Assembly: GCA_011523705.1 (NCBI GenBank)
Contig: WTGC01000171.1
Coordinates: 1 to 64,000 of the forward strand
DNA length: 64,000 bases
Reading direction: 5' to 3'
From: Chloroflexota bacterium
GTDB taxonomy: Bacteria; Chloroflexota; Anaerolineae; Aggregatilineales; Phototrophicaceae
Shown here: piece after piece, positions 14,043 through 31,414 of the stretch
Position numbering within the stretch: the first letter of the stretch is position 1
How the letters are laid out: each line of letters starts with the position of its first letter
Notes under the pieces: model-generated
What the model was told of the DNA's origin: nothing
Databases searched by the model: none
The model's input: only the letters and a program-made list of their open reading frames with translations
Position numbers and translations under genes: made by a program

Positions 14043-15581
14043 TCAAGCGATGCTGACCATGCCGACCAGATTGGTCGCCAGCGGATAGAAGATGCCAAAG
14101 ATCATCGTGCCGGCCAACGCGATGTTAATCGCCCAGCGGACGTATGGCGTTTCCAGCGCCGGCTGCAAATCGACGGCGCCCTCGCGCAAGTACATGTTGA
14201 CAACCACGCGCACATAATAGAAAGCGCTGACCACGCTGGTCAACACGCCGATGACCGCCAGCCCGAACAAGCCGGCCTGAAGCGCCGAAGCGAATACCAT
14301 GAACTTGCCCACGAAGCCGGCGGTGAGCGGAATACCGGTCAAGCTGAGCATGAAGATGGTCATCGCCATCGCCATCAGTGGACGCGTCTTCGCCAGCCCA
14401 ATGATGTCGTCGATCTCCCCGCCGCTGCCGTCTTCTCTCTCAATGGCCATGACCACGGCGAAGGCGCCCAGGTTGGTGAACATATATGCCATCATGTAGA
14501 CGAGGGCGCTCTGCGTTGCCGCGTCGATCACGCTCTCTGTGCCCGCGGCCGCCACCGCCACCATGATATAGCCCGCGTGCGCGATCGACGAGTAAGCCAG
14601 CATTCGCTTGAGATTGCGCTGTGAAATCGCGACGAAGTTGCCCAGCACCAGGGTCAATATGGCGATGATTGTCGCGGTCGTTTGCCAGGCGGCCGCCCCG
14701 CCCTCAACCAGGACGAGAACCGAAAGCCCGCTAACCAACACGCGAAGCAGCGCCGCGAAACCGCCAACCTTTGCCGTCACGCTCATGAAGGCGGTCACCG
14801 GCGTCGGCGCGCCTTCGTAGACATCGGGCGTCCACATGTGGAAGGGCACAACCGCCACTTTGAAGCCCAAGCCGACCACCAGCAGCGCCGCGCCAATCAG
14901 AAGATAGAAAGCGGCCGCCGAGGTCCCGCCGACGATCGTGCCAACGATGCTGAATATCTCTGGGATGTTCGTGGCGCCGGTCGCCCCGTAGACCAGCGCC
15001 GCGCCGAAAACCAGAAAGGCGCTGGAAAAGGCGCCCAGGATGAAATACTTCATGCCGCTTTCTTCCGATTTCAGCGACATTTCGCTTCCATCGTTCCGGA
15101 TTGAACGAAAAGCAGCCAGAATATAAAGCGGGATACTCAACAACTCAAGCGCGACGAAGATGACGATTAGGTCGTTCGCAGCCACCATGAACATGGCGCC
15201 GGCCGAAGAAATCAGCGCCAGGATGTAAAACTCGCCGCGGTGGATTTCGGCGCGATTGAGATAATCCCAACTCATCAGCACCGCGATCAATGTGGCGACC
15301 AGAATTACCATATTCAGAAAGCCGGTGAAAGCATCGGCGATGAACATGCCATAGAGCGCGATCTGCTCGCTCTCGGCCGGCGAGTAAACGAAGAGATTCG
15401 CTACAAAGCTGATGCCCAGTCCAACGCAAGCCATCACCGGCGTCCAGTGCGCGCGGTCCTCTCCGGCGAATAGATCAACCAGGACCAGGACTAGAGTCCA
15501 GGTCAACAACAGCGTGGCCGGCAAGGTCGAAGCCAGGTTGGATTGCGCCAGGAATTCAGCGATTGTGGGCGATTCAAACAT
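14043..15581 (-). CDS. nuoN: NADH-quinone oxidoreductase subunit N
   Basis: A 512-residue antiporter-like membrane subunit of respiratory complex I, one of three proton-pumping modules in the membrane arm. About 14 hydrophobic segments are visible. The conserved TM5 glutamate lies in VALELLSIPLYILAAF, the pumping lysine region in GLGFKVAVVPFHMWTPDVYEGAPTPV-type sequence, and the second conserved Lys in LKRMLAYSSIAHAGY. Length is normal. Last gene of the operon, 8 nt after nuoM. Confidence 0.96.
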   Translation of the reverse strand: MFESPTIAEFLAQSNLASTLPATLLLTWTLVLVLVDLFAGEDRAHWTPVMACVGLGISFVANLFVYSPAESEQIALYGMFIADAFTGFLNMVILVATLIAVLMSWDYLNRAEIHRGEFYILALISSAGAMFMVAANDLIVIFVALELLSIPLYILAAFRSIRNDGSEMSLKSEESGMKYFILGAFSSAFLVFGAALVYGATGATNIPEIFSIVGTIVGGTSAAAFYLLIGAALLVVGLGFKVAVVPFHMWTPDVYEGAPTPVTAFMSVTAKVGGFAALLRVLVSGLSVLVLVEGGAAAWQTTATIIAILTLVLGNFVAISQRNLKRMLAYSSIAHAGYIMVAVAAAGTESVIDAATQSALVYMMAYMFTNLGAFAVVMAIEREDGSGGEIDDIIGLAKTRPLMAMAMTIFMLSLTGIPLTAGFVGKFMVFASALQAGLFGLAVIGVLTSVVSAFYYVRVVVNMYLREGAVDLQPALETPYVRWAINIALAGTMIFGIFYPLATNLVGMVSIA

Positions 15582-15589
15582 GTTCTCTC

Positions 15590-17191
15590 CTAGCGAACGA
15601 ACAGCGCGACGATGCTATCCACCGAGACATCCAGCATGTTGAAGAAGACGATTGGCTGAATGCCCATCCAGAAGATCATGATGATAATCGGGATGAAAGC
15701 CGCTTTCTCGCTCCAGGTGAGCTTGTAGCCCTCTTCGCTGCTCAGTGGCCGCTTCAATTCGCCCATGAATACGTGCTGGAACATCTTCAGCAGGTAGACC
15801 GCCGCCATGATGACGCCAAGCGTTGCGAATAGTGTGAAGGCGAAGCCCAGGTATTCACTGCCCAGCGAGCCGAGCAGGATGGTGAACTCGCCGATAAAGC
15901 CGTTCAAGCCGGGCAAGCCCATGCTGCTGAGCGATATCACCAGGCTAATCGCGCCAAAGAGCGGCATCATCTTCCAGACGCCGCCGTAGTCCGCCATCTC
16001 TTTCGTATGCCAGCGCTCGTAAAGCATGCCGACGATCAAGAAGAGACCGCCGGTGCTGATGCCATGATTGACCATCTGCAGCGTGGCGCCTTGCAAGCCC
16101 TGCGCGTTGAGGGCGAAAATGCCCACCACCACAAAACCGAGATGGCTGACCGACGAATAAGCCACCAGCTTCTTGACGTTGTCCTGCGCATAGCTGACCC
16201 AGGCGCCGTAGATGATGCCGACCACACCAAGAAACGCAATGGTCGGCGCCCAAGCCACTGTCGCCTCGGGGAATAGATTTAGATTGAAGCGCACGATGCC
16301 ATAAGTGCCCATCTTTAGCAGCACGCCGGCTAGAATCACCGAGCCAGCCGTCGGCGCTTGCACGTGCGCATCGGGCAGCCAGCTGTGGAAGGGGAAGATT
16401 GGCACCTTGATGGCGAAAGCCACCAGGAAGCCCAGGAAGAGCCAACTCTCAACCGAATTGAGGAGGAAACCCTCTTGCTCGCCCTCTGGCCCCACCGCGT
16501 CCCAATACGTGCCCTCGCCTTCCCAGTTGTGCACGCGCTCAATCACGCCAACATCACCGCCGGCGCTGTAGGTGCTGAATGTGCCGGAGCGATTTCCGAC
16601 ATAGAGGATGGCGATCAGCATCAAGATTGAGCCGGCCATCGTATAAAGGAAGAACTTGACCGCGGCGTAAATCCGCTCTTCCGAGCCCCAGATGCCAATC
16701 AAGAAATACATCGGCACCAGCGTGACTTCCCAGAAGACGTAAAAGATGATCAGATCGTGCACAACGAAGACGCCGAGCATCGACCATTCAAGCAGCATCA
16801 GGAAAATATAGTAGAGCTTCTCGCGCCCGCGCTCTTCAAAGATATGGCTGCCGAAGGAACCCAGGATCGATATCGGCATAATGAAGGTCGTCAGCAGAAC
16901 CAGCAGCATGCTGATGCCATCGACGCCGACAAAGTAACTGACGTTAATGACCGAATCGCCCAATGAGACTTCCGCCCAGGTATTGCGCTGGACCATCTGC
17001 AGCCCGGCGCTGCCTGGATCAAAGTTGATCCACATCAGGACCGAAGCGACAAAGGTGACCACGCTGGTCGCGAAGGCAACCCATTTGAGATTCGCTTTCT
17101 GTGTCTCGCCGTTCATGAAGAGCAGAATAGCGAGACCGACCATGGGCAGGAACAAGGTAATTGTTGTGAGCGAAAGTCCAGTTACATCCAT
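15590..17191 (-). CDS. nuoM: NADH-quinone oxidoreductase subunit M
   Basis: A 533-residue complex I antiporter-like subunit. Conserved features: the TM5 glutamate in FWEVTLVPMYFLIGIWG, FAIKVPIFPFHSWLPDAHVQAPTAGSV around the pumping lysine, and VKKLVAYSSVSHLGFV in TM12. A modest insertion of about 30 residues (near residues 210-240, Gly/Glu-rich, after YSAGGDVGVIERV) lengthens a loop before the PFHSWLPDAH region. It lies 15 nt after nuoL and 8 nt before nuoN. Confidence 0.96.
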   Translation of the reverse strand: MDVTGLSLTTITLFLPMVGLAILLFMNGETQKANLKWVAFATSVVTFVASVLMWINFDPGSAGLQMVQRNTWAEVSLGDSVINVSYFVGVDGISMLLVLLTTFIMPISILGSFGSHIFEERGREKLYYIFLMLLEWSMLGVFVVHDLIIFYVFWEVTLVPMYFLIGIWGSEERIYAAVKFFLYTMAGSILMLIAILYVGNRSGTFSTYSAGGDVGVIERVHNWEGEGTYWDAVGPEGEQEGFLLNSVESWLFLGFLVAFAIKVPIFPFHSWLPDAHVQAPTAGSVILAGVLLKMGTYGIVRFNLNLFPEATVAWAPTIAFLGVVGIIYGAWVSYAQDNVKKLVAYSSVSHLGFVVVGIFALNAQGLQGATLQMVNHGISTGGLFLIVGMLYERWHTKEMADYGGVWKMMPLFGAISLVISLSSMGLPGLNGFIGEFTILLGSLGSEYLGFAFTLFATLGVIMAAVYLLKMFQHVFMGELKRPLSSEEGYKLTWSEKAAFIPIIIMIFWMGIQPIVFFNMLDVSVDSIVALFVR

Positions 17192-17206
17192 AGGACTGCG
17201 TTCTCC

Positions 17207-19714
17207 TTAAGCGCCGCTTCCGAACAGCGTCTGAACAAAGGGATATATCATGAGAGCGATCACGGCGACGACGCCGATGAACAAGACCACCGCATAAAGC
17301 CGCACGTAGCCAGTTTGAGCGCGCCGCATCCACTCGGCCGCGCGCAGCACGAAGGCGCCGACGCCGTTGACCGCGCCGTCAACAATGCCGAGATCGAATG
17401 GCTTGCCCAGCAATTCAGCGATGGTATCAAAGCCGCGCTTGATGATGCTGTCGTGGAAATAGTTGTGCAGGAAATCCCAATCGACGCGATCGGCCAGGAA
17501 TCCAGCCAGTCGGTTGAAGGGCTGCTCAATAATGACCGAATAGAATTCGTCCCAATACAATCGGGCGTTCGCCAGCCGGAACAGCGGACGTGATGCGCCG
17601 CCTTCTTCCAGCAAATCGCGATTGCCGCTCCCCAGTCCATTGCCCTTGTAAATCCGATTGGCAACGAGAATGGAGGCGATGCCCAATACCAGCGCGATGC
17701 CGGCGATAGAGAGGTTGAAATCGAGCGAGTGCCCACGCGAAACGCTGACCAGGCTGTGTTCGAGGAAGTGCTTGAATTCGTATGGCTGGTAAATGCCATC
17801 AAAAATCGGCGTGGATTTGGGCACGTTGATGAGACCGATGACGAGCGTGAAAACCGCCAGAATCAACAGCGGCAGCAGCATCGCGCCGTTGCTCTCCGGC
17901 GCTTGCTCGGCCGCTTCGCTGCGCGCTTCATCAAAGAAGACCAGCACAATCTGACGCCACATGTAGAAGGCGGTGAATGCAGCCGCCACCAGCAGCACGC
18001 AAAAGGCAATGAATCCGCTCAATTCATTCAGTTCGAAACCCTCATACCAGGCATCGGCTAGAATCTCGTCCTTCGACCAGAAGCCGGCAAAGGGGAAGAT
18101 CCCGGCCAGCGCCAACGTGCCGATCAGATAAGTGATGTAGGTGATAGGCATGCGCCGGCGCAAGCCGCCCATATTGCGCATGTCCTGCGGATCGAATTCT
18201 TCATCGTCGTGATGCTCATCTCCGTGTTCCTCATGCTCATGACCGTGGCCATGCGCATGCGCGTGATGATGGCCGTGCTCGACGCCGTGGATCACCGAGC
18301 CGCTGCCGAGGAAGAGCAGCGCCTTGAAGACGGCGTGCGTGACCAGGTGGAACATCGCCGCGACATAAGCGCCAATGCCAACCGCCGCCACCATGAAGCC
18401 CAGCTGCGATATCGTCGAATAAGCCAGCACGCGTTTGATATCCCACTGCCCGAGCGCGATATAACCCGCCATGAGCGCAGTGCCGGCGCCGACCAAAGTG
18501 ATGACCATGCCGATGACGTATCCGCCGTGATTCAGTTCCCACAAGAAGACATTGGAACGCACCAAAATAAAGACGCCGGCGGTCACCATTGTCGCCGCGT
18601 GGATCAGCGCGCTGACCGGCGTCGGACCAGCCATCGCGTCCGGCAGCCAGACAAAGAGCGGAATCTGCGCCGATTTGCCGGTGACGCCCAGCAATATGAA
18701 AAGCGCAATCAAGAAGATGACATCATCAAAAGTCATCTCGAAGCCGTTGAAGTCGACGATCTCGCCCGTTCCAAAGCGCTCGGTCGTCTGCCCGAAGACG
18801 CCAAGCAGCGCGATATCAAAATGATGATTATCGCAGTAAATGGCGCGGATGTCGCTCGCCAGGGGATTCGACGCGCTGTGCCCATCATCCGTACCATGAC
18901 CGTCGTCTTCTTCTAGGGCGGCCGGCACGCATTTGTAGCTGCCGCCATACCCGTCATCGGCTTTTTCCTCCGCGGCCTCGTCCTGTCCCGCGTCGGCTTC
19001 TTCGTGCTCCACAAGCCCATTGTGCTCGCGCCAATGCACGAGATACTTGGCCTCGGTGTTGGGCAGCTCGCCCGCTTTGTGGAAATCCAGCGTGCCGAAT
19101 GTCCAGAAAATGAGGAACATCGCCATCAGCAAACCGAAGTCGCCGATGCGATTGACGATGAAGGCTTTGCGCGCGGCGTTGCTATTCTTCCAGCCTTCGG
19201 GCGCTTTCTTGTCCCACCAGAAGCCGATGAGCAAGAAGGAACAAAGCCCGACGCCCTCCCAGCCGACGAAGAGCATCAGGAAGTTGTTTCCCGTGACCAG
19301 GATGAGCATGAAAGCCAGGAACATATTCAAATACGCGAAGAAGCGCGGATACCACTTGTCGCCGTGCATATAACCGCGGGCGTAAAGATGAATCAGCGAG
19401 CCGACGCCGGTGACCACCAGCATCATCGTCACGCTGAGCGAATCGACGCGCTGCTGCCAGGAAATATCAAGGCCGATGGATTCAATCCGCAGCCAGCCGT
19501 CAACAAAGGGCGGATTGACCACCGCCGCGCCGCCATTTGTGCCCGTTACATAAGTCAGCAAAAGCAATGAAACAATGAAGGAAAGAATCGAAGCGAAACA
19601 GGCGATATAACCAGACCACTTCTCTTCGAGTTTGGCGCCGAAGAAGAAGTTGATAAAGGCGCCCAGCGCGGGCACAAATATCACTAGTGGAACCAGGAGC
19701 GGGAGGTTTTCCAT
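17207..19714 (-). CDS. nuoL: NADH-quinone oxidoreductase subunit L, with acidic and His-rich insertions
   Basis: At 835 residues this distal complex I pumping subunit is much longer than the usual 610-660. The core is intact: the TM5 glutamate in GWEGVGLCSFLLIGFWW, KSAQIPLFVWLPDAMAGPTPVSALIHAATMV, and VLAYSTISQLGFM, with the long lateral helix region at the C-terminus. Two insertions explain the extra length. One of about 70-80 residues near 225-310 is highly acidic (runs of Glu/Asp/Ala) and includes two Cys. The other, near residues 480-510 between GSVIHG and QDMRNMGGL, holds about 12 His in 27 residues with Glu and Asp. Both fall in loops and not in helices. Confidence 0.95.
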   Translation of the reverse strand: MENLPLLVPLVIFVPALGAFINFFFGAKLEEKWSGYIACFASILSFIVSLLLLTYVTGTNGGAAVVNPPFVDGWLRIESIGLDISWQQRVDSLSVTMMLVVTGVGSLIHLYARGYMHGDKWYPRFFAYLNMFLAFMLILVTGNNFLMLFVGWEGVGLCSFLLIGFWWDKKAPEGWKNSNAARKAFIVNRIGDFGLLMAMFLIFWTFGTLDFHKAGELPNTEAKYLVHWREHNGLVEHEEADAGQDEAAEEKADDGYGGSYKCVPAALEEDDGHGTDDGHSASNPLASDIRAIYCDNHHFDIALLGVFGQTTERFGTGEIVDFNGFEMTFDDVIFLIALFILLGVTGKSAQIPLFVWLPDAMAGPTPVSALIHAATMVTAGVFILVRSNVFLWELNHGGYVIGMVITLVGAGTALMAGYIALGQWDIKRVLAYSTISQLGFMVAAVGIGAYVAAMFHLVTHAVFKALLFLGSGSVIHGVEHGHHHAHAHGHGHEHEEHGDEHHDDEEFDPQDMRNMGGLRRRMPITYITYLIGTLALAGIFPFAGFWSKDEILADAWYEGFELNELSGFIAFCVLLVAAAFTAFYMWRQIVLVFFDEARSEAAEQAPESNGAMLLPLLILAVFTLVIGLINVPKSTPIFDGIYQPYEFKHFLEHSLVSVSRGHSLDFNLSIAGIALVLGIASILVANRIYKGNGLGSGNRDLLEEGGASRPLFRLANARLYWDEFYSVIIEQPFNRLAGFLADRVDWDFLHNYFHDSIIKRGFDTIAELLGKPFDLGIVDGAVNGVGAFVLRAAEWMRRAQTGYVRLYAVVLFIGVVAVIALMIYPFVQTLFGSGA

Positions 19715-19745
19715 ATCGCTAGCGCCTCTTCCGACGGGCTTTCTA

Positions 19746-20054
19746 TCAACCTTGCATCTGCTGCAAGTCGTCTATATTAATGCTCTGACGCTCGCGGAAA
19801 ATATTTACGATCAGCGCCAAGCCCACCGCCACCTCGGCCGCGGCCACAGTCATGACAAAGAATACGAAGACATGCCCGTTGACTTGGCCCCACTCGCGCG
19901 CGAAGGCGACCAGCGCCAGGTTCGCCGAATTCAGCATCAGCTCAACCGACATAAAGACCAGGATGGCGTTGCGCCGCATGAGCACGCCCAGCGCCCCCAA
20001 CAGGAACAGCACCATGCTCAAGACGATATAGGGTTCGGTGCCGATTGGATTCAT
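19746..20054 (-). CDS. nuoK: NADH-quinone oxidoreductase subunit K
   Basis: A 102-residue, three-helix membrane subunit of complex I. The two buried glutamates needed for proton transfer are present: Glu38 in [17 protein letters not shown] and Glu74 in [13 protein letters not shown] (E. coli Glu36 and Glu72). Length is exactly typical. Located between nuoJ (19 nt upstream) and nuoL (31 nt downstream). Confidence 0.97.
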
Positions 20055-20073
20055 CGCCTAGCTTCTCCCGCGG

Positions 20074-21462
20074 CTACTCAGCTGAGCCATCATCAGACCC
20101 GCCGGGCAGCTTCGCCAGATAGTCGCCACTCAATACATCCGCGCCCGTCTGCTGTGAAATCACACTGACCAGCGGGCGATTCACCCGCCGCCGTCGATTG
20201 ATTCGCCGGCGCTCGGCCTGCGCCAGCGCATCGGGCCGCGCCAATACAATCACGCCAATCAGCGCGACCAGCAGCAGCATGCCCACCAACATCACTGGCA
20301 GCACGTATTCGATGAACAAGACCTGCCCGACCGACTCGGGGCTGCCGAAAGCCGGCAGGCCGAAAGCATGATAGACTGCGGCGCGGTAACTAGCCTGGCT
20401 GCCCGGCGCGCCCGGTTCGCGCACCAGCACGCGCGTCTCGATAAGACCGCGATCCGCCTGATAATCGGCCAGCGTACGCAAGACTTCTTGATCTTGATCG
20501 ACGAAAGCCAGATTATATGTTCCCTCATCGAGCTCGAGGCTGGTGTGCTCGCCGGCCGGCAATAGATCAATTAGCGTGCGATGCGGGATCAAGCCGTTGC
20601 AGGCGGCGTCCTCACACAAGCTGCGCCGCGCCGTATATTGCCCGACATCAACCAGTGAGACTTGCCGGTCGGTTACGGCGTTGAAGAGCGTCAGGCGCAT
20701 CATGCCGACCGCCGGCGCGCTGATATCATCCGCAAGCACCGCGACATCGACCAAGTCTTCATCGTTTTCGAATACGACGAGCGAGAAGGCCGATTCCGGC
20801 GGCAGAATCAAATCTTTGGTGAAGATGGGTCCGGATACGTAGCTGCCGTCATCGACGCCGACCAAGACGGTGTATTGTCCCGCTTCGAGCTCGGTATAAC
20901 CGCGCACGGCCTCGCGCGAGTCGCCATACACTACGCCGTCGATTCTGCTATCCGCCTTTGTTTCGTCAAGCGCGTCGAGAGCGACATTGGCGCTGACCGT
21001 GCCAGCCAGGGGCATCGCAAAGCCCATTTCCATCAAGGTGTACGCTTCCGCCTCGCCGCCCGGAATGGCGTTGATGACGCGCAAGCGGGCGCTGGCAGAT
21101 AGCGTTTCGGGGCTCTCGTTCGCCAGCATATCCGATGCGATGGGGAAGGCAAAAATCAATAGCAGAATAATCGCAACCGCCGAGCCGGCCAGCCCCAGCC
21201 AGCGCATGCGCCCTGAGGTGTCGGTGGTGGTTTCGGCGCCCAGAAGCATAATGACAAAGAGAAAAAGCACCATGATTGCGCCGGTGTAAACCGTCACCTG
21301 CACCATCGCCAGGAAAGGCGCGTCCAACATCAAATAGAGAAAGGCGACGCAGCCGAAGTTGACAATCAGAAAGAGCGCGCTGTGCACCGCGTTTTGCCGC
21401 GTCAGCATCATGGCGGCCGCCAGCACCGCCACAAAGCTAACCGCCAGAAACAACCATTCCAT
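20074..21462 (-). CDS. nuoJ: NADH-quinone oxidoreductase subunit J with two inserted DUF4397-like domains
   Basis: NuoJ normally has about 165-200 residues; this one has 462. Helices TM1-TM3 with the conserved MVQVTVYTGAIMVLFLFVIMLLG are at 1-75, TM4 at about 91-110 and TM5 at about 380-408, followed by a basic tail. Between TM4 and TM5 lie about 260 extra residues (about 112-373) that look like two tandem beta-sandwich domains: ARLRVINAIPGG ... ELEAGQYTVLVG ... LVVFENDEDLVDVAVLADD, then MRLTLFNAV ... LPAGEH ... LDEGTYNLAFVDQ. Both resemble DUF4397. By standard NuoJ topology the TM4-TM5 loop faces the outside. The frame is continuous with no stop, so this is a real insertion. Function of the added domains unknown. 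Confidence 0.93.
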   Translation of the reverse strand: MEWLFLAVSFVAVLAAAMMLTRQNAVHSALFLIVNFGCVAFLYLMLDAPFLAMVQVTVYTGAIMVLFLFVIMLLGAETTTDTSGRMRWLGLAGSAVAIILLLIFAFPIASDMLANESPETLSASARLRVINAIPGGEAEAYTLMEMGFAMPLAGTVSANVALDALDETKADSRIDGVVYGDSREAVRGYTELEAGQYTVLVGVDDGSYVSGPIFTKDLILPPESAFSLVVFENDEDLVDVAVLADDISAPAVGMMRLTLFNAVTDRQVSLVDVGQYTARRSLCEDAACNGLIPHRTLIDLLPAGEHTSLELDEGTYNLAFVDQDQEVLRTLADYQADRGLIETRVLVREPGAPGSQASYRAAVYHAFGLPAFGSPESVGQVLFIEYVLPVMLVGMLLLVALIGVIVLARPDALAQAERRRINRRRRVNRPLVSVISQQTGADVLSGDYLAKLPGGSDDGSAE

Positions 21463-21559
21463 ACGATCTAAATCCCACTCAGAACGAGTTTGTGCATTTT
21501 AGCACAATGTCCAATACGCTTCAATTCGCAGTGCCGACGATTACCTAAAAAATAATCCA

Positions 21560-21729
21560 ACTACAGAGGGCGCAGAGCGCGCAGAGGATTAGTCTCAAGG
21601 AAATGAACTGGCCGCATTGATCATTCCGATACGAGCGACAGTGACGGGCTGCCTAATGATTTTTCTCCGTTTGCGCGCGTGAAGGCCATTTCACCTTAAA
21701 TCTCTGCGTTCTCTGTGTCCTCTGTAGTT
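21560..21729. repeat. Inverted-repeat element between nuoI and nuoJ
   Basis: The 270-nt gap 21463-21732 has no credible gene. It holds two imperfect inverted arms: 21560-21589 (starting AACTACAGAGG, then repeats of GCAGAG) and 21701-21729 (ending CCTCTGTAGTT). They are about 110 nt apart and each is built of short CAGAG/CTCTG units. The right arm abuts the nuoI stop. This resembles a MITE- or REP-like dispersed intergenic element. No transposase is linked. Confidence 0.6.
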
Positions 21730-21732
21730 CAA

Positions 21733-22227
21733 TCAAGACGGGTCTTCCATATCCGGGATCGAGCGATCATACGCGCCCGGCTCGACTTCCTGCGGCGTGC
21801 TTTGAGCGCCTTCGTCCGGCGCGTCGATCAGCATCTCTTTGGTATAAATCGCGTCGCGGCGATCGGTGAAGGACAGTTGATGCTCATGCCCCAATTGAAT
21901 CGCTTCCGTCGGACAGGCGTCTTCGCAATAGCCGCAATAGATGCAGCGCAGCATGTTGATCTCATAGGTCTTGGCATAGCGCTCGCCCGGGCTGAAACGT
22001 TCTGCGTCGGTATTCTCGGCCGCTTCCACCCAGATGGCATCGGCCGGGCAGGCGGCGGCGCAGAGCGAACAGCCGATGCATTTCTCCAGTCCGTTCTCAT
22101 AACGGCGAAGATGATGCCGGCCCTTGTAGCGATCGTGGAATTTCTGCACCTGTTCCGGATATTGCACGGTGACCGCATCATCCATGAGGTGCTTCAAGGT
22201 GGTTTGGAATCCTTTGATGACGTTCAT
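21733..22227 (-). CDS. nuoI: NADH-quinone oxidoreductase subunit I (two [4Fe-4S])
   Basis: A 164-residue ferredoxin-like peripheral subunit of complex I. Two complete [4Fe-4S] motifs are present, CIGCSLCAAACPADAI and CIYCGYCEDACPTEAI, which carry clusters N6a and N6b from the hydrophilic arm towards NuoB. The N-terminal amphipathic helix that docks on the membrane arm is also there. It lies 62 nt after nuoH; a 270-nt repeat-containing gap separates it from nuoJ. Confidence 0.96.
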   Translation of the reverse strand: MNVIKGFQTTLKHLMDDAVTVQYPEQVQKFHDRYKGRHHLRRYENGLEKCIGCSLCAAACPADAIWVEAAENTDAERFSPGERYAKTYEINMLRCIYCGYCEDACPTEAIQLGHEHQLSFTDRRDAIYTKEMLIDAPDEGAQSTPQEVEPGAYDRSIPDMEDPS

Positions 22228-22289
22228 GATCCTGTCCTCAAGTCCATGTGTTTCGAGCCATCAGCCTGGCGCTGATAGCCCGGTCTCGC

Positions 22290-23864
22290 TTAGTCGCCGC
22301 CGACCCTTTTGATGGCGGTCTCTCCGCTTTCGAAGATGCGATCTTCTTCCGGCGTCCGTCCCAAGCTCGCCAAGCCTTCAAGCGCCCTGATTTGAAAGCG
22401 AATCTGCGCCAGCGGGATCGCGATCAACATGCCGACCACATGCACCATCGCCCAACCCAAGCCGCGCCGTTCGCCGGTATAAGCCGGGTCGTCTTCCAGC
22501 GGAATCGCTTCTTCAAGGTCGCGCTCGCGGCTCATCCGGCGCAGCGCCAGGGCGCCAATCAGCAGCACGACCACAAATACGATGCCGGAGATGAATGGAT
22601 AAGCCGTGCCGCCAAGCGCATCGCCGACGACGATCGATACCGCCGTCCAAGCCACCGCCAGCAGCGCCAGCGGGATCATCACCTTCCAGCCGAATTGCAT
22701 CAGGCGGTCGTAGCGGATGCGCGGCAGCGTCGCCCGGATCCAAATCATGAAGCAGAGCATGAGAAATACTTTAAGAATGAAAATGACCGGCGCCAGAATC
22801 GGCAGCCCATCCATCGGCCAAAGGTGATAGCCGCCGAAGAACACCGCAATCGCCACCAGGCTGACGGCGATCATGCCCAGATATTCAGCCATCATAAACA
22901 GGGCGAACTTCATGCCGCTGTATTCGGTCATGTAACCCTGCGTGAGTTCTTGCTCGGCTTCGGTCAGGTCGAAGGGTGCGCGGTTGGTCTCCGCCAATAG
23001 CGCCAAAACCAAGACAGCGGCGGCCAAGGGATTCTGGAAGACGAACCAATCCCAGATGTTGCGCTGCGCATCCATGATATCGCCGATCGACATGCTGCCG
23101 ACGATCATGACCGGGACAGCCAGCGTTAAGGCGAAACTGAGCTCGTAGCTGATCATTTGCGCCGAAGCGCGCAAGGCGCCCAGCATGGCGTATTTGTTAT
23201 CGCTGGACCAGCCCGCCAAGACTACGCCATAAGTGGCAATGCTGGTGATTGCAATCACCCAGAGGATGCCGACATTGGAATCGACCAAGCCTTGCGGAAC
23301 CTGGAACCAAACATCGCCCAGCGACGGCGCGAACCAGGGCAAAAGCAAATCGGGCCCCATCGGGATCACGGCCGCGATCATCAAGATTGGTACGACCTTG
23401 ATCATCGGCGCCAGGCGGAAGACCCACTTGTCGGCGCCGGCCGGGATCAAATCCTCTTTGAAAACCAGCTTGACGCCGTCGGCCGCCGGCTGCAAGAATC
23501 CCTGCGGACCCACCCGGTTGGGTCCAACACGATGCTGCAGGAAAGCCAGCAATCGCCGTTCGAGCAATGTGGTATAGGCGAATCCGGTGACGATGACGAA
23601 GGCGAATCCAGCGGCGAATATGATCGGCCAGAGCGCTGAACAGCCGGCGTCGTCTTGGCACTGCACGACGTTTTGAATGCGCGCTTCCGGATGGAGCAGC
23701 ATGCCGATCGCGCCTTGTCGTCCGTCCAGGTTCAGAGCGTCGTCGAAGCCGATCCAGGTCGCGATCGCGCCGAGATTGGCGATGATCAGCGCCAGGACCA
23801 GGATTGTCACGGCAAGCCCGCCCAGGACGACGATGGCAATGGCGATCTTCAAGTTACGGCTCAT
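22290..23864 (-). CDS. nuoH: NADH-quinone oxidoreductase subunit H, extended at both ends
   Basis: The quinone-site membrane subunit of complex I. The conserved core is clear: TLLERRLLAFLQHRVGPNRVGPQGFLQPAADGVKLVFKED, then ETNRAPFDLTEAEQELTQGYMTEYSG around the quinone cavity. At 524 residues it exceeds the usual 320-430. An N-terminal stretch of about 90 residues contains an extra hydrophobic helix (about 7-33) and two Cys (CQDDAGC), and a C-terminal region of about 75 residues is charged with one more hydrophobic segment. The start ATG at 23864 has an AGAGGATCTAAGGT ribosome site, supporting the long N-terminus. Confidence 0.95.
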   Translation of the reverse strand: MSRNLKIAIAIVVLGGLAVTILVLALIIANLGAIATWIGFDDALNLDGRQGAIGMLLHPEARIQNVVQCQDDAGCSALWPIIFAAGFAFVIVTGFAYTTLLERRLLAFLQHRVGPNRVGPQGFLQPAADGVKLVFKEDLIPAGADKWVFRLAPMIKVVPILMIAAVIPMGPDLLLPWFAPSLGDVWFQVPQGLVDSNVGILWVIAITSIATYGVVLAGWSSDNKYAMLGALRASAQMISYELSFALTLAVPVMIVGSMSIGDIMDAQRNIWDWFVFQNPLAAAVLVLALLAETNRAPFDLTEAEQELTQGYMTEYSGMKFALFMMAEYLGMIAVSLVAIAVFFGGYHLWPMDGLPILAPVIFILKVFLMLCFMIWIRATLPRIRYDRLMQFGWKVMIPLALLAVAWTAVSIVVGDALGGTAYPFISGIVFVVVLLIGALALRRMSRERDLEEAIPLEDDPAYTGERRGLGWAMVHVVGMLIAIPLAQIRFQIRALEGLASLGRTPEEDRIFESGETAIKRVGGD

Positions 23865-23882
23865 ACCTTAGATCCTCTGTGG

Positions 23883-26417
23883 TCAGTTGCCGGCAGCGAC
23901 CGCTTCCGCGACTTTGCTGATGCAGCCCGCCGTGATCGACAGCGGAATCGCTTCCGCGGTCAAATGACGCGGCAGCGCGACCGCCCCAGCCGCCATATCG
24001 TCGCTTAGCGCCGCCTGCACGCGAACGCTCGCTTCGCCGGCGCGGATCTCAATGGTATCGCCATCGTTGATGCCCAGCGCCGCAGCGTCATCAGAATTGA
24101 CGATGGCAAAGGGCGTCAGGATCCGAGGCTCCAGAATCAGCGTGGGACGGAAATTGCGCTGGCGATTGTACAAGCGCGTAATCGGCATCAGCAGGACTTC
24201 ATTCTCGCCGGCTGTCGGCTGGTCAAATGAGGCCAATCGGCGCGGACGCCGGCCTTTGCGCTTGTCGGACGCAGTCGGAATCTGAACGCCGAGCCCGCCC
24301 GTATTGCTGTAAGCGGTGCCGCCATAATATTGATCGCGGCCGCCCACATCGGGGAATTCGCGTTTGACCTGCGCCAGCGCCTTGTAGGTGATGCCTTCAA
24401 ATTCGCTGATTTTGTCGCTCAATTCCAGCATCACCGCGGCTGCTGACGGCTGCAGCGGACCGTCCCCAAGCGCCTGCCGAATGCCGCCAAAGACCCGCCA
24501 AGCTGGCAGCGACTGGCCTATTGGTCCCTGCGCGGTATAGAAGCGCTGTACGCGCCGCTCGCCGTTGACGAAGCTGCCATCGCGCTCGGCGAAGCTCTGT
24601 ATCGGCAAGACAAAATCGGCCAATGTCGAGACGCCATCGTCGAAGAAGTTGGCGTAGATGACGGTCTCGACCTGGCTCAGCCAAGCGCGCGCCGCCGGAT
24701 CGTCATCAAGCAATTCCGCCTGGGCGACGATCAGCGCCTTGGGCGGGTGCGCCATGATGTCGAGCGTCGCTTCCGGCGTATAGCCCAGGTAATGCAAGCC
24801 CATGCCATTGGCGCCGGGCAAGGGGATGAGCAAGCCATTATTGCGCCGCCCGATATGATCGGTTTCGATGAGGAAATTGGCGGCCGCCTGCGCCAGCGCT
24901 TTGCTGCCAGCGAGCGTCAAGCCTTCCGCGCCGGCGACAATCACCAGATTTTCCGCCTTGCTCAAGCGCGCGGCGATTTCCGGGTGATCGGCGCTGAGAT
25001 ACTGCATGACCGCGGCCGCCTCGCCAGCGCCATAGCGGATGATATCGCCCTCGACCACCTTGTCATTGCGCGCGCCTTCAACGGCGAAGTCTTCCAGCCG
25101 CGTATGCCGCGCGTTGGCGACAACCAAATAAGCGCCACGGTCTTGCGCCTGTTTCAGCCGCAGACGCCACATCGGCACTTCTTCTTCCAGATCCGAGGCG
25201 ATCACCAGAATGGCGTCGCCGCGCCCGAGCTGGCCGAGGTTGCTGCCGAAGCCGACGCCGACTTCCGCGACGATTTCGGCGCCGCCATGGGTCGGCATCC
25301 AGGCGCCCAGCCGCGAGCCACCCAGCCCTTCCACCAGCTTGCGCAATTCCCAGAGGTCTTCGTTGGTCATGCTGCCGCCAGCGATGGCCGCGATATCACC
25401 ATCGGCGCTCTCCAAAGCGGCCGCGATTGCTGGCAGCACGGCGGACCAGTTGGATTCGCGCAGGGCGACGCCGGCTTTCATCAGCGGCTGCGTCAGGCGA
25501 TCTTCGGCCCGCGTGAAATGATGCCCAAAGCGCGTCTTGTCGCTGATCCATATCTCGTTGACGCGCTCATTCTGCCGCGGCATGACTCGCTTGATCTGCG
25601 CCTTGCCGCCGAAGTCGCGGTCGAGCCGCATGCTGAGGTTGATATTCTCGCCAGCCGCGTCCCAGGGCGAAATGCTCGGCACTTCATTCAATTCCCAGGG
25701 CCGCGCGCCAAAACGGAAATCGGTCGTTGTCAAAGCGCCAACCGGGCAGATATCGGTCGTGTTGCCGCTGAAATACGTGTCAAAGCCGGGATCGGAATTC
25801 GTGATGATTTGCAAGCGGCGTCCGCGCTCGTGGAAAGCCAGCACATCATCGCCGACCACCTCGTCCTGAAAACGAATGCAGCGCGCACATTGAATGCAGC
25901 GTTCGCGGTCGAGGAAGATCAAATCGCCAAGCGGATAATGCTTTTCCAATAATTGCTTGTCATCAAAATACATGCGCGAGGATTGCGGACCGTGACGCAT
26001 GGTCAAATTCTGCAGCGGGCATTCGCCGCCTTTGTCGCAAATCGGGCAATCCAGCGGATGGCTCGAAAGCAGAAACTCCAACACATCATTGCGCGCGTCT
26101 ATCACTTCCTGCGTATTCGTCTTGATGTGCATGCCGTCGCTGACGGTGGTCGTGCAGGCGGTTTGCAGTTTAGGGAAATAACGAATCTGCGGGCTGCCGT
26201 CATCGTTGAGCATGACTTCGCCAGTGGCGCGGTCGCGGGCGGGCGTTCCCAATTCGACCAGGCACATCCGGCACATGCCCACCGGCTCCATCTTCGGATG
26301 ATAACAGAACACGGGGATATCGTTGCCCGCGTGCCACTTGGCCGCATCGACCAGGTTCGAGCCAGCCGCTACCTCGTAATCTTTCCCGTCAACGTTGATT
26401 GTCACCGTGTCGGACAT
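23883..26417 (-). CDS. nuoG: NADH-quinone oxidoreductase subunit G (Fe-S, molybdopterin-like domain)
   Basis: The 844-residue large iron-sulfur subunit of complex I. The N-terminal [2Fe-2S] domain has CYHPKMEPVGMCRMCLVE and the distal Cys in QTACTTTV. Then come the His-Cys3 motif HPLDCPICDKGGECPLQ and the [4Fe-4S] pairs RCIQCARCIRFQDEV with DICPVGALT. Residues about 230-840 form a molybdopterin-oxidoreductase-like domain lacking an obvious active site, as in other NuoG, ending with the MopB C-terminal barrel (DAAALGINDGDTIEIRA). Encoded between the small orf and nuoH (18 nt). Confidence 0.95.
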   Translation of the reverse strand: MSDTVTINVDGKDYEVAAGSNLVDAAKWHAGNDIPVFCYHPKMEPVGMCRMCLVELGTPARDRATGEVMLNDDGSPQIRYFPKLQTACTTTVSDGMHIKTNTQEVIDARNDVLEFLLSSHPLDCPICDKGGECPLQNLTMRHGPQSSRMYFDDKQLLEKHYPLGDLIFLDRERCIQCARCIRFQDEVVGDDVLAFHERGRRLQIITNSDPGFDTYFSGNTTDICPVGALTTTDFRFGARPWELNEVPSISPWDAAGENINLSMRLDRDFGGKAQIKRVMPRQNERVNEIWISDKTRFGHHFTRAEDRLTQPLMKAGVALRESNWSAVLPAIAAALESADGDIAAIAGGSMTNEDLWELRKLVEGLGGSRLGAWMPTHGGAEIVAEVGVGFGSNLGQLGRGDAILVIASDLEEEVPMWRLRLKQAQDRGAYLVVANARHTRLEDFAVEGARNDKVVEGDIIRYGAGEAAAVMQYLSADHPEIAARLSKAENLVIVAGAEGLTLAGSKALAQAAANFLIETDHIGRRNNGLLIPLPGANGMGLHYLGYTPEATLDIMAHPPKALIVAQAELLDDDPAARAWLSQVETVIYANFFDDGVSTLADFVLPIQSFAERDGSFVNGERRVQRFYTAQGPIGQSLPAWRVFGGIRQALGDGPLQPSAAAVMLELSDKISEFEGITYKALAQVKREFPDVGGRDQYYGGTAYSNTGGLGVQIPTASDKRKGRRPRRLASFDQPTAGENEVLLMPITRLYNRQRNFRPTLILEPRILTPFAIVNSDDAAALGINDGDTIEIRAGEASVRVQAALSDDMAAGAVALPRHLTAEAIPLSITAGCISKVAEAVAAGN

Positions 26418-26447
26418 TCAGGCCTCCACAATCAGAATCCGCCGCAA

Positions 26448-26783
26448 TCAGCGCGCCGCTCGCAGCGCGTCTCGCGCCACTTCCAAGCCATACAGCGCGC
26501 GATCGCGCATGACCTGTTCTATTACATGCCATCCCTGGTCGTCATCCAAAGCATCCGCCAATTCAACGGCGGTCGCAAAGTCAGTTTGCGCGCGCTCGAA
26601 TTCTCCCCGTTCCAGACTGAGCTCGCCGCGTAGCGTAATTGCGACCAAGTCATCCGGCGCTTCATCGATCACCCGGCTCAATTCGCGATAGCGCCGGTAA
26701 AACGCTCTTTCGCGTTCCAAGGGCGACTGGAACAGCCGGCCGGCTAATTCGCGCAGGATGCCGCCTTTGTCGACCGCCTTCAT
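26448..26783 (-). CDS. Small TPR-like protein inserted in the nuo operon
   Basis: An 111-residue soluble, charged, fully helical protein between nuoF (24 nt upstream) and nuoG (30 nt downstream). The middle reads LVAITLRGELSLERGEFERAQTDFATAVELA, which fits one TPR repeat, so it is probably a helper or assembly protein and not a catalytic subunit. No cysteine cluster or membrane segment. I chose the ATG at 26783 (MKAVDKGG); a TTG 24 nt earlier would extend it. Not one of the canonical 14 Nuo subunits and not recognised as a named family. Confidence 0.75.
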   Translation of the reverse strand: MKAVDKGGILRELAGRLFQSPLERERAFYRRYRELSRVIDEAPDDLVAITLRGELSLERGEFERAQTDFATAVELADALDDDQGWHVIEQVMRDRALYGLEVARDALRAAR

Positions 26784-26807
26784 ATCAATTGAACTCCGCC
26801 GGGCCAA

Positions 26808-28058
26808 CTAGGTTTGCACATGCTGCGCGAAATCATCGGGGAAATGGCGAATCGTATGGATGATCGGGTTGGCGGCGAAATCTCCCAAGGCGCAGAGCGT
26901 CGTGCCCGCCATATTCTCCGCCACATTGGCGATGCGCTTGACATCATCCGGCGAGCCGCGCCCATCCAGAATGCGATCGATCACCTTGTCCAGCCAATAA
27001 GTTCCCTCGCGGCAGGGCGTGCACTTGCCACAGCTCTCGTGCGCAAAAAACTTGGTGACTTTCGACGCCACCCAGGTCATATCCACCGTTTCGTCCATGA
27101 CGATGATCGATGCCGAGCCAATGATGGTGCCGATGTTGGCGCAGTCCTCGTAGCTCATCGGCGTATCCAGCACCTCATCGGTCAAGGGCACGATCGGTCC
27201 AGAACCGCCCGATGGCAGCATCGCTTTGAACGGGCGATCTTCATATAGCGGACCGCCGGCGTGCTCGTATAGCAACTCACGAAAAGTCGTGCCCATCGGC
27301 AATTCATAATTGTCCGGGCGCTTCACATGTCCGCTGACGCAGTAGACTTTGTTTCCCGTGCTCTGCTCGGTGCCGATCGCCTTGAAGGCATCCGCCCCTT
27401 CGCTCAAGATGAAGGGCACGTTTGCCAGCGTCTCGACGTTGTTGACGACGGTCGCTTCTTTGTAGAGGCCGCCGCCCTTCTGCGCCGGGAATGGCGGGCG
27501 CACGCGTGGCTGCCCCAGATAACCTTCAAGGCTGTTGAGCAGCGCGCTCTCTTCGCCACAGATATACGCGCCAGCGCCGAGGTGCGTATAAACCTCGCAG
27601 TCGTAGCCGGAGCCCATGATGTTCTCGCCGACGTAACCTTTTTCGCGCAGCGCTTCAATGCATTCGTCGAGCTGATCGCCGATATCCCAGAACTCGCCGC
27701 GCAGGTAAATGTAGATCGCTTTCGCCTGTATCGCGTAAGCGCAAATCAGCGAGCCTTCGATCAACTGATAAGGATTCTCCTCCATGATCTCGCGATCTTT
27801 GAAGGTGCCGGTCTCGCTTTCGTCGGCATTCACGGTGACGTATTTGACCGGCTCATTCTGGGGTATGAAGCTCCATTTGACGCCCGTAGGAAAGCCGGCG
27901 CCACCACGCCCGCGCAAGCCCGACGCCTTAACCACGTCAATGACCTCGGACGGCGTCATCGCCAGCGCCTTCTTCATGCCGACGAAGCCGCCATGCCCTT
28001 CATAGACATCCAGCTGCTTGATGTTTTCGATATCTCGCCCGCGCAAGAGAATATGCAT
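26808..28058 (-). CDS. nuoF: NADH-quinone oxidoreductase subunit F (NADH/FMN site)
   Basis: The 416-residue NADH-oxidising flavoprotein of complex I. It has the FMN/NADH glycine-rich segment GRGGAGFPTGVKW, the second conserved stretch GAYICGEESALLNSLEGYLGQPRVRPP-type, and the N3 [4Fe-4S] ligands in ESCGKCTPCREG plus Cys in TLCALGD. The start is taken at ATG 28058 (MHILLRGRD); an in-frame TTG at 28082 is possible but would add eight residues with no known counterpart. Confidence 0.96.
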   Translation of the reverse strand: MHILLRGRDIENIKQLDVYEGHGGFVGMKKALAMTPSEVIDVVKASGLRGRGGAGFPTGVKWSFIPQNEPVKYVTVNADESETGTFKDREIMEENPYQLIEGSLICAYAIQAKAIYIYLRGEFWDIGDQLDECIEALREKGYVGENIMGSGYDCEVYTHLGAGAYICGEESALLNSLEGYLGQPRVRPPFPAQKGGGLYKEATVVNNVETLANVPFILSEGADAFKAIGTEQSTGNKVYCVSGHVKRPDNYELPMGTTFRELLYEHAGGPLYEDRPFKAMLPSGGSGPIVPLTDEVLDTPMSYEDCANIGTIIGSASIIVMDETVDMTWVASKVTKFFAHESCGKCTPCREGTYWLDKVIDRILDGRGSPDDVKRIANVAENMAGTTLCALGDFAANPIIHTIRHFPDDFAQHVQT

Positions 28059-28088
28059 AGTCGCTCTTTTTTCTTGATTCAACCCGGT

Positions 28089-28595
28089 TCAGCCGCGCCC
28101 ATTCGCCGCTTGAGCCGCTTCCAAGCGCCACTTCGCCAGCAGTTCGCGCATCTTATCTTGATCGAGATTTTCCACATAGTGGAAATTGCATTGCAGCATC
28201 GGCGCCTTGTCGCAAGCGGCCAGACACATGACATGCTCGACGGTGAACATCCCGTCTTTGGTCGTGCCGCCCTCTTCCACACCCAGTTCGTCTTTCAGCC
28301 AGGCATGAAAATCATCGGCGCCTTTGAGCGCGCAAGGCAGGTCGGTGCAAACTTGCAGCCAGTATTTGCCTTTGGGCTGCTCGGAATACATGGTATAGAA
28401 GCCGGCGATCGACTTCACCTGCGTGGGATCGAGATTGAGAATCTCGGCGACTTCGTTGATGCCTTCGGGATTCACCCAGCCGTATTCTTCCTGGGCGATG
28501 AAAAGCAGCGGCATCACCGCCGAGCGCTTGGTCTCGTATTTCGCCAAATGATGGTTGATGCGTTCTTCGTATTTTGGATTGCCAATGATGGCCAT
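28089..28595 (-). CDS. nuoE: NADH-quinone oxidoreductase subunit E
   Basis: The 24-kDa-type [2Fe-2S] subunit of complex I, 168 residues. The helical N-terminal thioredoxin-like domain is followed by cluster ligands CTDLPC (C-x4-C) and CLAAC. I start at ATG 28595 (MAIIGNPKYEE), which has AAGGGAAAG as ribosome site. The open frame reaches 28679, but those extra codons are the GGGCGA repeat element and give an odd Ser/Asp-rich leader. nuoF follows after 30 nt. Confidence 0.95.
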   Translation of the reverse strand: MAIIGNPKYEERINHHLAKYETKRSAVMPLLFIAQEEYGWVNPEGINEVAEILNLDPTQVKSIAGFYTMYSEQPKGKYWLQVCTDLPCALKGADDFHAWLKDELGVEEGGTTKDGMFTVEHVMCLAACDKAPMLQCNFHYVENLDQDKMRELLAKWRLEAAQAANGRG

Positions 28596-28628
28596 GCGCT
28601 GCTTTCCCTTGCAGTCGGAATTGCTTGC

Positions 28629-28680
28629 GGGCGAGTCAAGGCTCGCCCCTACAGAATCTCGATCATTTGCATTTGTCAAT
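28629..28680. repeat. GGGCGA palindromic repeat, copy 1 (between nuoD and nuoE)
   Basis: GGGCGAG (28629-28635) and CTCGCCC (28642-28648) form a 7-bp hairpin, followed by CTACA and a 30-nt tail that resembles the tail of the second copy at 62606-62710 (CTACA, then AATC, TCATC, TGCA, TTT, CAA in the same order). The element fills most of the 87-nt gap between nuoD and nuoE. Confidence 0.65.
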
Positions 28681-28682
28681 CG

Positions 28683-29951
28683 TCAGCGGTCGCAATCGCC
28701 GAGCACAATGTCGACGCTGCCGATGATCGCAACCATATCCGCCAAGAGATAACCCTTCGAGACGACCGGCAGCGCGCTAATATGAATGAAAGACGGCGTC
28801 TTGAAGTGCACGCGCCGCGGCTTGTTGGCGCCCGTCCCATGGATGTAACAGCCAATCTCGCCGCGCGGACTTTCGATGGCGTTGTAGATCTCTTCGTCCG
28901 GCGCGTCATAGCCGTAGGTCCAGAGTTTGAAGTGATGGATGACGGCTTCCATGCTCTGCCCCAGTTCGCTGCGCAGCGGCGGGCAATATTTGTTGTTCTG
29001 CGACCGATAAGGTCCCTTGACCGTCTCCAGCCGCGCCACTGCTTGATTCAGGATTTTCATGCTCTCGCGGAATTCGTGAATCCGAATCAGATAGCGGTCG
29101 TAGACATCGCCATGCTCGCCCAGGGGTACATTAAAGTCATAAGTCTCGTAGCCGCAATAGGGCTGCGCCTTGCGCAAGTCCCAGTTGACGCCGCTGCCGC
29201 GCAGCGCCGGGCCGGTCATGCCGTAAGCCATGGCGACATCCGGCTCGATGACGCCGACGCCCTGCGCGCGATCTTTCCAGATCGGATTCTTCGTCAGCAA
29301 GGCTTCATAATCATCGACCTTGTAAGGGAAGTCATTGAGGAATTGCTTGATTGTCGGGAGGAAATCATCCGGCACATCGCGCCAGACGCCGCCGGGCCGA
29401 ATATAGCTGCTCATCATGCGCTGGCCCGAGAGCATCTCGAACATGCCCAGAATCCGCTCGCGCTCACGGAAGGCGTAAAGCAAGACGCTCATGGCGCCCA
29501 TGTCGATGGCGTGCGTGCCCAGCCAGACCAGGTGGCTCGCGCAGCGCGCCAGTTCCAGGCAGACGACGCGAATGATCTGCCCGCGCTCCGGCACGTCCAG
29601 GTCGAGCAGCTTCTCCACCGCCGCGGCGTAAGCCATGTTGTTGGACATGGGCGAGAGATAATCCATGCGGTCCGTCAGCGGCAGCGCCTTTTCGTAGCTC
29701 TTGTCCTCAAGGGATTTCTCGATGCCGGTGTGCAGAAAACCGATATCCGGCAGGCAACTGACGATTTGCTCGCCATCCAGTTCCAGCAGAAGGCGCAATA
29801 CACCGTGCGTGCTGGGATGATGGGGACCCATATTGAGCAGCATCGTTTCGCCGGTGATCGCCCGTTCCGAGACCAAACCGCGCAACTGATCGAGGCTGCC
29901 TTCCCAACGGCGCTGTTCTTCAATGGATTGCGTCTGCTCTGCGACTGCCAT
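28683..29951 (-). CDS. nuoD: NADH-quinone oxidoreductase subunit D (49-kDa, quinone site)
   Basis: A 422-residue hydrogenase-like subunit of complex I that helps form the quinone cavity. Conserved stretches include MGPHHPSTHGVLRLLLELDGE (with the quinone-site His pair), GFLHTGIEK, DRMDYLSPMSNN, and the C-terminal FKTPSFIHISALP and ADMVAIIGSVDIVLGDCDR. I chose ATG 29951 (MAVAEQTQ); the longer frame would overlap nuoC. Upstream nuoC ends 14 nt away. Confidence 0.96.
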   Translation of the reverse strand: MAVAEQTQSIEEQRRWEGSLDQLRGLVSERAITGETMLLNMGPHHPSTHGVLRLLLELDGEQIVSCLPDIGFLHTGIEKSLEDKSYEKALPLTDRMDYLSPMSNNMAYAAAVEKLLDLDVPERGQIIRVVCLELARCASHLVWLGTHAIDMGAMSVLLYAFRERERILGMFEMLSGQRMMSSYIRPGGVWRDVPDDFLPTIKQFLNDFPYKVDDYEALLTKNPIWKDRAQGVGVIEPDVAMAYGMTGPALRGSGVNWDLRKAQPYCGYETYDFNVPLGEHGDVYDRYLIRIHEFRESMKILNQAVARLETVKGPYRSQNNKYCPPLRSELGQSMEAVIHHFKLWTYGYDAPDEEIYNAIESPRGEIGCYIHGTGANKPRRVHFKTPSFIHISALPVVSKGYLLADMVAIIGSVDIVLGDCDR

Positions 29952-29965
29952 AGCGACCTCGGATG

Positions 29966-30535
29966 CTAGTCCCTGGCAAAGGGCTTGTGCTGATGAATCT
30001 CTTCGACATTGAAGGAAAAGGCGACCGTCTCCTTGCCCAGCGGGTAGTCGCGCCGATGCGGATGACCGTACCAATCCTCGGGCATCAGCAAGCGCCGCTG
30101 GTCGGCATGCCCTTCAAAGACGATGCCCATCATATCGGCGATTTCGCGCTCCAGCCAATTGGCCGCTGGCCAAACCACAGTCGCGGTCGGCAAGCGCGGA
30201 TCCTCCGCAGTCGCGAAGGCTTTCACCCGCAGCCGCCGATTGTAAAGCATCGACAAGATATGATAAGAGACGCCGAAACGCTCCGGCCGATAATCGCTCT
30301 CTTCGCCGTCGAAGGCATCGCCGTAATCGTCCGGAAAGTAGTCTACAGCGCTGATATCGGAAAGCATGTTGTAGACCAAACCGGCAGTGACGCGAAGGAA
30401 GTCCAGCACTTCCGCTGTCCGCTCGGCCTCGACGATGAGAGTCGTTTCGCCGCGGAATTCCTTCACATGCAGCAGCGCGTCGCCAAAGACGTCGCGCAAG
30501 GCGCTCACCGGATCTCTCGCCGCCGGGATTTCCAT
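29966..30535 (-). CDS. nuoC: NADH-quinone oxidoreductase subunit C
   Basis: The 30-kDa-type subunit of the hydrophilic arm, 189 residues. The signature WLEREIADMMGIVFEGHADQRRLLMPEDW and a C-terminal YPLGKE segment identify the family; the DISAVDYFP core strand is also present. Stand-alone, not fused to NuoD. 43 nt downstream of nuoB. Confidence 0.95.
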   Translation of the reverse strand: MEIPAARDPVSALRDVFGDALLHVKEFRGETTLIVEAERTAEVLDFLRVTAGLVYNMLSDISAVDYFPDDYGDAFDGEESDYRPERFGVSYHILSMLYNRRLRVKAFATAEDPRLPTATVVWPAANWLEREIADMMGIVFEGHADQRRLLMPEDWYGHPHRRDYPLGKETVAFSFNVEEIHQHKPFARD

Positions 30536-30578
30536 TCGCTATTCGCCACCCATATTCAGCGTGTTTGCCAAAACTAAA

Positions 30579-31061
30579 TCAAGCCCAATCGGCAATGCGC
30601 TCGCCTTTGACCTTCTCATGCAGGGTCAAGATGCCGTGCAGCAGTTGTTCCGGGCGCGGCGGGCAACCGGCGACATAGACATCCACCGGGATGATCTCAT
30701 CCACACCCTGTACAATGGCGTAATTGTTATAGACGCCGCCGCAAGAGGCGCAATCGCCCATCGAGATGACCCACTTGGGCTCCGCCATTTGATCGTAGAG
30801 CTGCCGCACAACCGGCGCCATCTTCCGCGTCAGCCGTCCCGATACAATCAAAAGGTCGGCTTGCCGCGGCGTGGCGCGATTCAGTTCCATGCCAAATCGC
30901 GACAAATCATAGCTCGACGCCTGCGAACTCATATACTCAATCGCGCAGCAAGCCAGCCCAAAGAGCAGCGGCCACATCGCGCCGGTGCGGGCATGATTGA
31001 CGGCTTGTTCGACGGTGGTGGTAACGATGCCGAGATTCCCCAGCTTTGAACTTACTCCCAT
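30579..31061 (-). CDS. nuoB: NADH-quinone oxidoreductase subunit B (N2 cluster)
   Basis: A 160-residue subunit carrying terminal cluster N2 next to the quinone site. The four ligands can be seen: the adjacent cysteines in [10 protein letters not shown], Cys in [12 protein letters not shown] and Cys in GCPPRPEQ. The start is set at ATG 31061 (MGVSSKLG), with GAAAGGTGG as ribosome site. It overlaps the end of nuoA by 10 nt (coupled translation). Confidence 0.96.
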
Positions 31062-31414
31062 TCCAAACCACCTTTCTTCCATTCGTAAACGAAGCCGACG
31101 ATCAAGATTACGGTGAATACCGCCATCACCGCCAGCCCGTAAAAGCCGAGGTCGCGCATGGAAACCGCCCAAGGCAAGAAGAATATCACCTCAATGTCGA
31201 AAATAATGAAAAGTACGGCGACCAAATAAAACTTGACCGGCAAACGGCGCGTCGCCGGACCAATCGGCTTCATGCCGCTCTCGTACGGAACCGATTTGCG
31301 ATAGGTCGGCCGATGAGGACCCATCACCCGCGAGATGTTGGAGATGATCAGCGCCAGGATGACGGAGATGACCAGCAAGGCGGTGACGGGACCAAATTCC
31401 AGGACGGTCGACAT
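31052..31414 (-). CDS. nuoA: NADH-quinone oxidoreductase subunit A
   Basis: A 120-residue, three-helix membrane subunit of complex I, first gene of the operon. Conserved features are [42 protein letters not shown]-type sequence, with the acidic residues FDIEV in TM2, and a C-terminal [10 protein letters not shown] tail. ATG at 31414 has TTGGAG 5-6 nt upstream. Confidence 0.96.

Follow-up and report, generated by a model that had tools for sequence, protein, structure and literature searches.

The window analysed here, a stretch of 64,000 nucleotides, carries a complete operon for respiratory complex I on its minus strand. Within this operon, the subunit gene nuoJ encodes a protein enlarged by a long insert, and two neighbouring subunits, NuoH and NuoL, also have distinctive segments. 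The features, all on the minus strand, are as follows.

14043-31414, minus strand: complete nuoABCDEFGHIJKLMN operon containing the insert-bearing nuoJ
20074-21462, minus strand: nuoJ, complex I subunit J with insert; Oxidored_q3 and DUF4397 matches in one open frame
21130-21462, minus strand: NuoJ TM1-TM4, residues 1-111; model helices 2-21, 25-45, 49-77 and 87-109
20350-21129, minus strand: insert, residues 112-371, in the predicted outer TM4-TM5 loop; defined by Pfam, model and relatives, with a rough dN/dS of about 0.15 within the genus
20716-21102, minus strand: insert domain 1, residues 121-249, DUF4397; Pfam match, and hhalign to secreted DUF4397 domains
20350-20715, minus strand: insert domain 2, residues 250-371, diverged DUF4397-like; hhalign to domain 1 and to secreted DUF4397 domains
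20077-20349, minus strand: NuoJ TM5 and Arg-rich tail, residues 372-462; helix from residue 375 in the model, Oxidored_q3 positions 109-146
23640-23660, minus strand: NuoH C69-x5-C75, in an N-terminal extension just before the conserved first helix
18731-19075, minus strand: enlarged acidic TM6-TM7 loop of NuoL, about residues 214-328, from alignment

The nuoJ product, 462 aa in a single open frame, matches the Oxidored_q3 family (PF00499) at E 1.9e-35, with 122.2 bits against a cut-off of 33.2, and the family model is split by the insert between profile positions of about 99 and 109. A model of the full-length protein shows the five-helix layout of NuoJ (helices at residues 2-21, 25-45, 49-77, 87-109 and 375-425) and sets the 260-residue insert between TM4 and TM5. 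The protein is like NuoJ/ND6 in its five membrane helices, its family profile and its place in a nuo operon with all other subunits. It differs from the solved NuoJ/ND6 chains that it matches, which measure 161-252 aa, by a folded TM4-TM5 insert of 260 aa. An initial annotation had read a 462-residue NuoJ in a continuous frame with its extra residues between TM4 and TM5; both statements hold, and the interval that it gave for the insert, 20344-21129, fits residues 112-371.

Homology, predicted fold and placement of the insert

Pfam comparison of the insert alone gives a DUF4397 (PF14344) score of 34.1 bits (E 4.7e-8), above the cut-off of 30.6, which the whole protein also exceeds with 31.5 bits. 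All 46 sampled long NuoJ proteins match DUF4397 at E 0.01 or better (best E 2.7e-24), and this, together with the score over the cut-off, places the identity of the insert far beyond chance. Profile-profile comparison by hhalign relates domain 1 to secreted DUF4397 domains from within the order (99.7%, E 5e-27), and domain 2 both to domain 1 (96.7%, E 3.6e-10) and to the secreted domains (96.1%, E 3.4e-9). Because domain 2 is linked to the family by profile-profile comparison alone, it is called DUF4397-like. The proposal of two tandem DUF4397-type domains, for which the initial annotation had suggested an HMM search, thus stands in full for domain 1; for domain 2 of the window's protein the relationship stands, with no separate Pfam match.

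In the relative L049, the first strand of the insert reads VRVIHAAPDADAVDV, near the consensus start of secreted DUF4397 domains. The DUF4397 proteins inspected at other loci of the order look exported or lipoprotein-like, with N-terminal signal-like sequences by eye, and unlike NuoJ they do not belong to a membrane pump; exported proteins of this family, whose domains are homologous to the insert, are its likely source. Exported-looking members of 690-941 aa are encoded in two families of the order, at L220 (5415-7988) and L221 (5026-7848 and 7985-10054), where the genes adjoin, by eye, adenosylhomocysteinase-like and sugar/adenosine kinase-like genes.

In the known layout of NuoJ, the TM4-TM5 loop lies outside. 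This layout, the Arg-rich tail that follows TM5 and the acidity of the insert (17 K/R against 41 D/E) indicate that the insert would lie on the outer, extracytoplasmic face of assembled complex I. The initial annotation had assumed the same side, and nothing in the analysis places the insert in the cytoplasm.

The full-length model has a mean pLDDT of 75, with most of the insert at 84-94, and the L049 insert modelled alone has a pLDDT of 90 and a pTM of 0.88. For both models, the best fold match is the tandem extracellular domain of PepT1/PepT2, with Z 15.5 over 188 residues (3.1 A) for the full-length model and Z 15.6 over 183 residues (3.4 A) for the L049 insert. These fold searches support an earlier comparison of the whole-protein NuoJ profile with solved structures, which had pointed to SLC15A2 (PepT2) at E 7e-5; a sequence search for a solved homologue with the insert alone gave nothing better than E 0.54. 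Further matches are the N-domain of AlgF on domain 1 (Z 9.2), the C-domain of AlgF on domain 2 (Z 11.0) and the lumenal domain of HGSNAT on domain 2 (Z about 12). Transthyretin-like folds come next at Z about 7, and these may reflect merely a common arrangement.

The predicted insert repeats the tandem arrangement of the PepT and AlgF proteins, with its two beta-sandwich domains in matching order. Like NuoJ, PepT1/PepT2 (SLC15) carry their pair in an outer loop of a multi-helix membrane protein; they differ in that the identity is about 12%, the host is an MFS transporter and the ligand, trypsin, is known (PMC4597091). These extracellular domains bind trypsin, and their removal leaves transport intact (PMC4597091). 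AlgF of Pseudomonas aeruginosa has the same N- to C-domain order as NuoJ domains 1 and 2, and differs in being a free-standing adaptor in the periplasm that links AlgJ with AlgX (PMC10641220). HGSNAT resembles NuoJ in that its folded domain lies on the side of a membrane enzyme that faces away from the cytoplasm, but it is a lysosomal acetyltransferase with a single matching domain, that for domain 2.

Distribution, origin and neighbouring features

A search of 100 relatives found the long NuoJ in the window's own genus, in most of its family and in four further families (f3, f4, f7 and f8); in families f2, f5 and f6 it found short NuoJ only. Long frames of 397-513 aa were taken from 69 genomes. 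Across phylum and class samples of Chloroflexota, no NuoJ with a DUF4397-type insert appeared outside the order Aggregatilineales. One relative (G060), consisting of one contig of 5,631,885 bases, encodes a NuoJ of 482 aa with a DUF4397 match at E 2.8e-12, and is apparently the closed genome of the cultured phototroph Phototrophicus methaneseepsis ZRK33. The closest relative of ZRK33 is Aggregatilinea, yet a separate order has been proposed for the strain (PMC8941918); Aggregatilineales was formerly SBR1031, and older names of the order are recorded (PMC8067394). The genome that contains the window is a draft of 246 contigs, and the initial annotation had recognised that its reading would be undone if the insert were a misassembly absent from all relatives. 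With the insert spread through the order in 69 frames, apparently including a closed genome, an assembly or frame artefact is refuted.

In a tree built from NuoH, NuoI, the NuoJ core and NuoK, all insert-bearing operons fall into one clade with support of 0.999, its sister being f5/f6, followed by f2. On the sequence evidence, the insert is the product of a single gain in an ancestor within Aggregatilineales. Median dN/dS values within the genus, which are rough with synonymous distances near 1, are 0.045 for TM1-4, 0.027 for TM5, 0.18 for domain 1 and 0.14 for domain 2. The insert is under purifying selection, yet evolves faster than the membrane part.

Eleven genomes were checked for their complement of NuoJ: each insert-clade genome among them combines a single long NuoJ with one or more short ones, and the genomes of f2, f5 and f6 have short NuoJ only. 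The short protein offers an internal control for the long one in the same cells. In the window's genome, the second nuo cluster has the composition HJKLMMN, with two NuoM and a NuoJ of 170 aa. It lies at L158 (G000:C151, 2482-11784) with no peripheral-arm genes alongside, and a second NuoD family member of this genome is found on contig C193. Other inserts also occur in the TM4-TM5 loop. A NuoJ of 331 aa in another Chloroflexota family (L160, 397-1389; L162, 528-1520) carries an insert of about 110 aa that is unrelated to the one in the window and gives a weak, sub-threshold match to the Pfam P2 response regulator binding domain. A NuoJ of 266 aa (L161, 932-1729) differs from both, with an insert of about 70 aa that contains two cysteines.

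Wherever NuoH is readable in an insert-bearing operon (L185 by hand), its outer N-terminus has the cysteine pair, whose spacing in this clade (C-x4/5-C) is longer than the C-x3-C of sister families f5/f6, which have no NuoJ insert. In the window's genome, CTGLC likewise stands at the start of the NuoH of the second complex I. A strict link between the pair and the insert was rejected, since C-x3-C is present in f5/f6 and in the second complex, where NuoJ has no insert; the pair is older than the insert, and given the CTGLC of the second complex a functional tie between them is no more than possible. A disulfide from the C-x4-C of domain 2, a genus-level feature, to the NuoH pair was dropped because the domain 2 cysteines are unconserved outside the genus. 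The enlarged acidic NuoL loop occurs across the order, already in f2, f5 and f6, and is absent from most other Anaerolineae compared; in Anaerolineae, a NuoL loop rich in His is common. Being older, the enlarged loop was rejected as part of the same event as the NuoJ insert. Because f5/f6 have the NuoH C-x3-C and f2, f5 and f6 the enlarged NuoL loop, all without the insert, the outer side seems to have changed stepwise, from the NuoL loop to the NuoH cysteine pair and then to the NuoJ insert with the longer C-x4/5-C.

Between nuoF and nuoG, the window also encodes a small TPR-like protein of 119 aa (26451-26807, minus strand), and the ZRK33-like genome has one of 133 aa in the same position (L232, 7693-8091, plus strand). 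This protein is a possible accessory or assembly factor of the insert-bearing complex I.

Possible roles of the insert

The location of the insert in the sequence, its homology, its single origin, the selection on it and its predicted fold are established computationally; from these we infer that it sits on the outside of assembled complex I, that it docks a partner and what kind of partner this would be. The idea of an added outer-face module, put forward in the initial annotation, is supported by the fold, by selection and by conservation throughout the clade. In the proposed mechanism, two DUF4397 beta-sandwich domains, of a type otherwise found on exported proteins, would have been inserted once into the outer TM4-TM5 loop, and the resulting acidic module of about 26 kDa would stand on the extracytoplasmic face of complex I. 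There it would hold a partner at the enzyme, which could be another respiratory complex, a soluble electron carrier or an envelope protein. Alternative complex III is made unlikely as a general partner, as ZRK33 is reported to lack it (PMC8941918). Such a docking platform is, in our judgement, the most likely role of the insert, with chances of about even. Docking is favoured because the tandem fold binds partners in PepT1/PepT2 (trypsin) and in AlgF (AlgJ and AlgX). None of the uses suggested at the outset (assembly, supercomplex formation or envelope contact) is singled out by the results, and the fold match leans towards docking. Several points count against it: a shared fold is no proof of function, transthyretin-like folds of Z about 7 bind other things, the insert changes faster than the membrane part, and the loop also takes unrelated inserts, which fits a tolerant site.

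Within the membrane arm, NuoH is a neighbour of NuoJ. This arrangement counts for a serious alternative, possible though not probable, in which the module lies against the outer face of NuoH, NuoA or NuoK, perhaps against the cysteine-pair extension of NuoH, and gives the complex stability with no partner from outside, as supernumerary subunits of mitochondrial complex I do. The presence of the NuoH pair in all readable insert-bearing operons and its longer spacing in the insert clade agree with such an internal role, but sister families have the pair without the insert, the second complex has CTGLC in its NuoH, and the nearest fold matches are partner-binding domains. Tolerance of the loop could go further and explain the insert as a near-neutral decoration, its domains kept without a specific role. 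The unrelated inserts at the same loop (L160/L162 and L161) and the mere 55% identity of domain 1 within the genus are in keeping with this, yet a dN/dS of about 0.15 (rough, with dS near 1), retention across five families and a well-formed predicted fold make it improbable.

Catalysis or metal binding is unlikely because the insert lacks conserved Cys or His (in the respective best columns, Cys occurs in 5 of 24 sequences and His in 13 of 24) and because every one of the 24 inserts has a net negative charge (-6 to -39); a redox or metal-binding insert was rejected on the column counts. The acidity itself might collect or retain protons, or attract cationic carriers, beside the pump. Per 100 residues, domain 1 stands at -11.7 and is thus more acidic than the secreted DUF4397 domains at -6.6, and the NuoL loop is likewise acidic. 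However, the secreted domains of the order are acidic too and charge needs no folded domain pair, and we consider this role quite improbable.

Significance for complex I

Core subunits of complex I are highly conserved, and additions are normally separate accessory subunits. In most families of one bacterial order, a folded outer domain pair is built into a core subunit itself. The enzyme remains complex I and DUF4397 is a known family; their combination in NuoJ appears new. No earlier report of such an outer domain pair on complex I was found, nor any paper joining NuoJ with DUF4397, in a literature search that was thin on subscription journals, so that an earlier description elsewhere is possible.

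That the tandem fold recurs in a peptide transporter, in a periplasmic adaptor and in complex I points to a binding module that can be reused on the outer side. The insert is apparently carried by P. methaneseepsis ZRK33, a phototroph available in culture and with its genome closed, and its role is testable there. More speculatively, and rather doubtfully at present, the docking NuoJ may tie the outer face of complex I to a specific partner, such as a bc complex, a soluble electron carrier or a photosynthetic complex, while the second complex with its plain NuoJ stays free. If true, this would be a core-encoded route to supercomplex formation.
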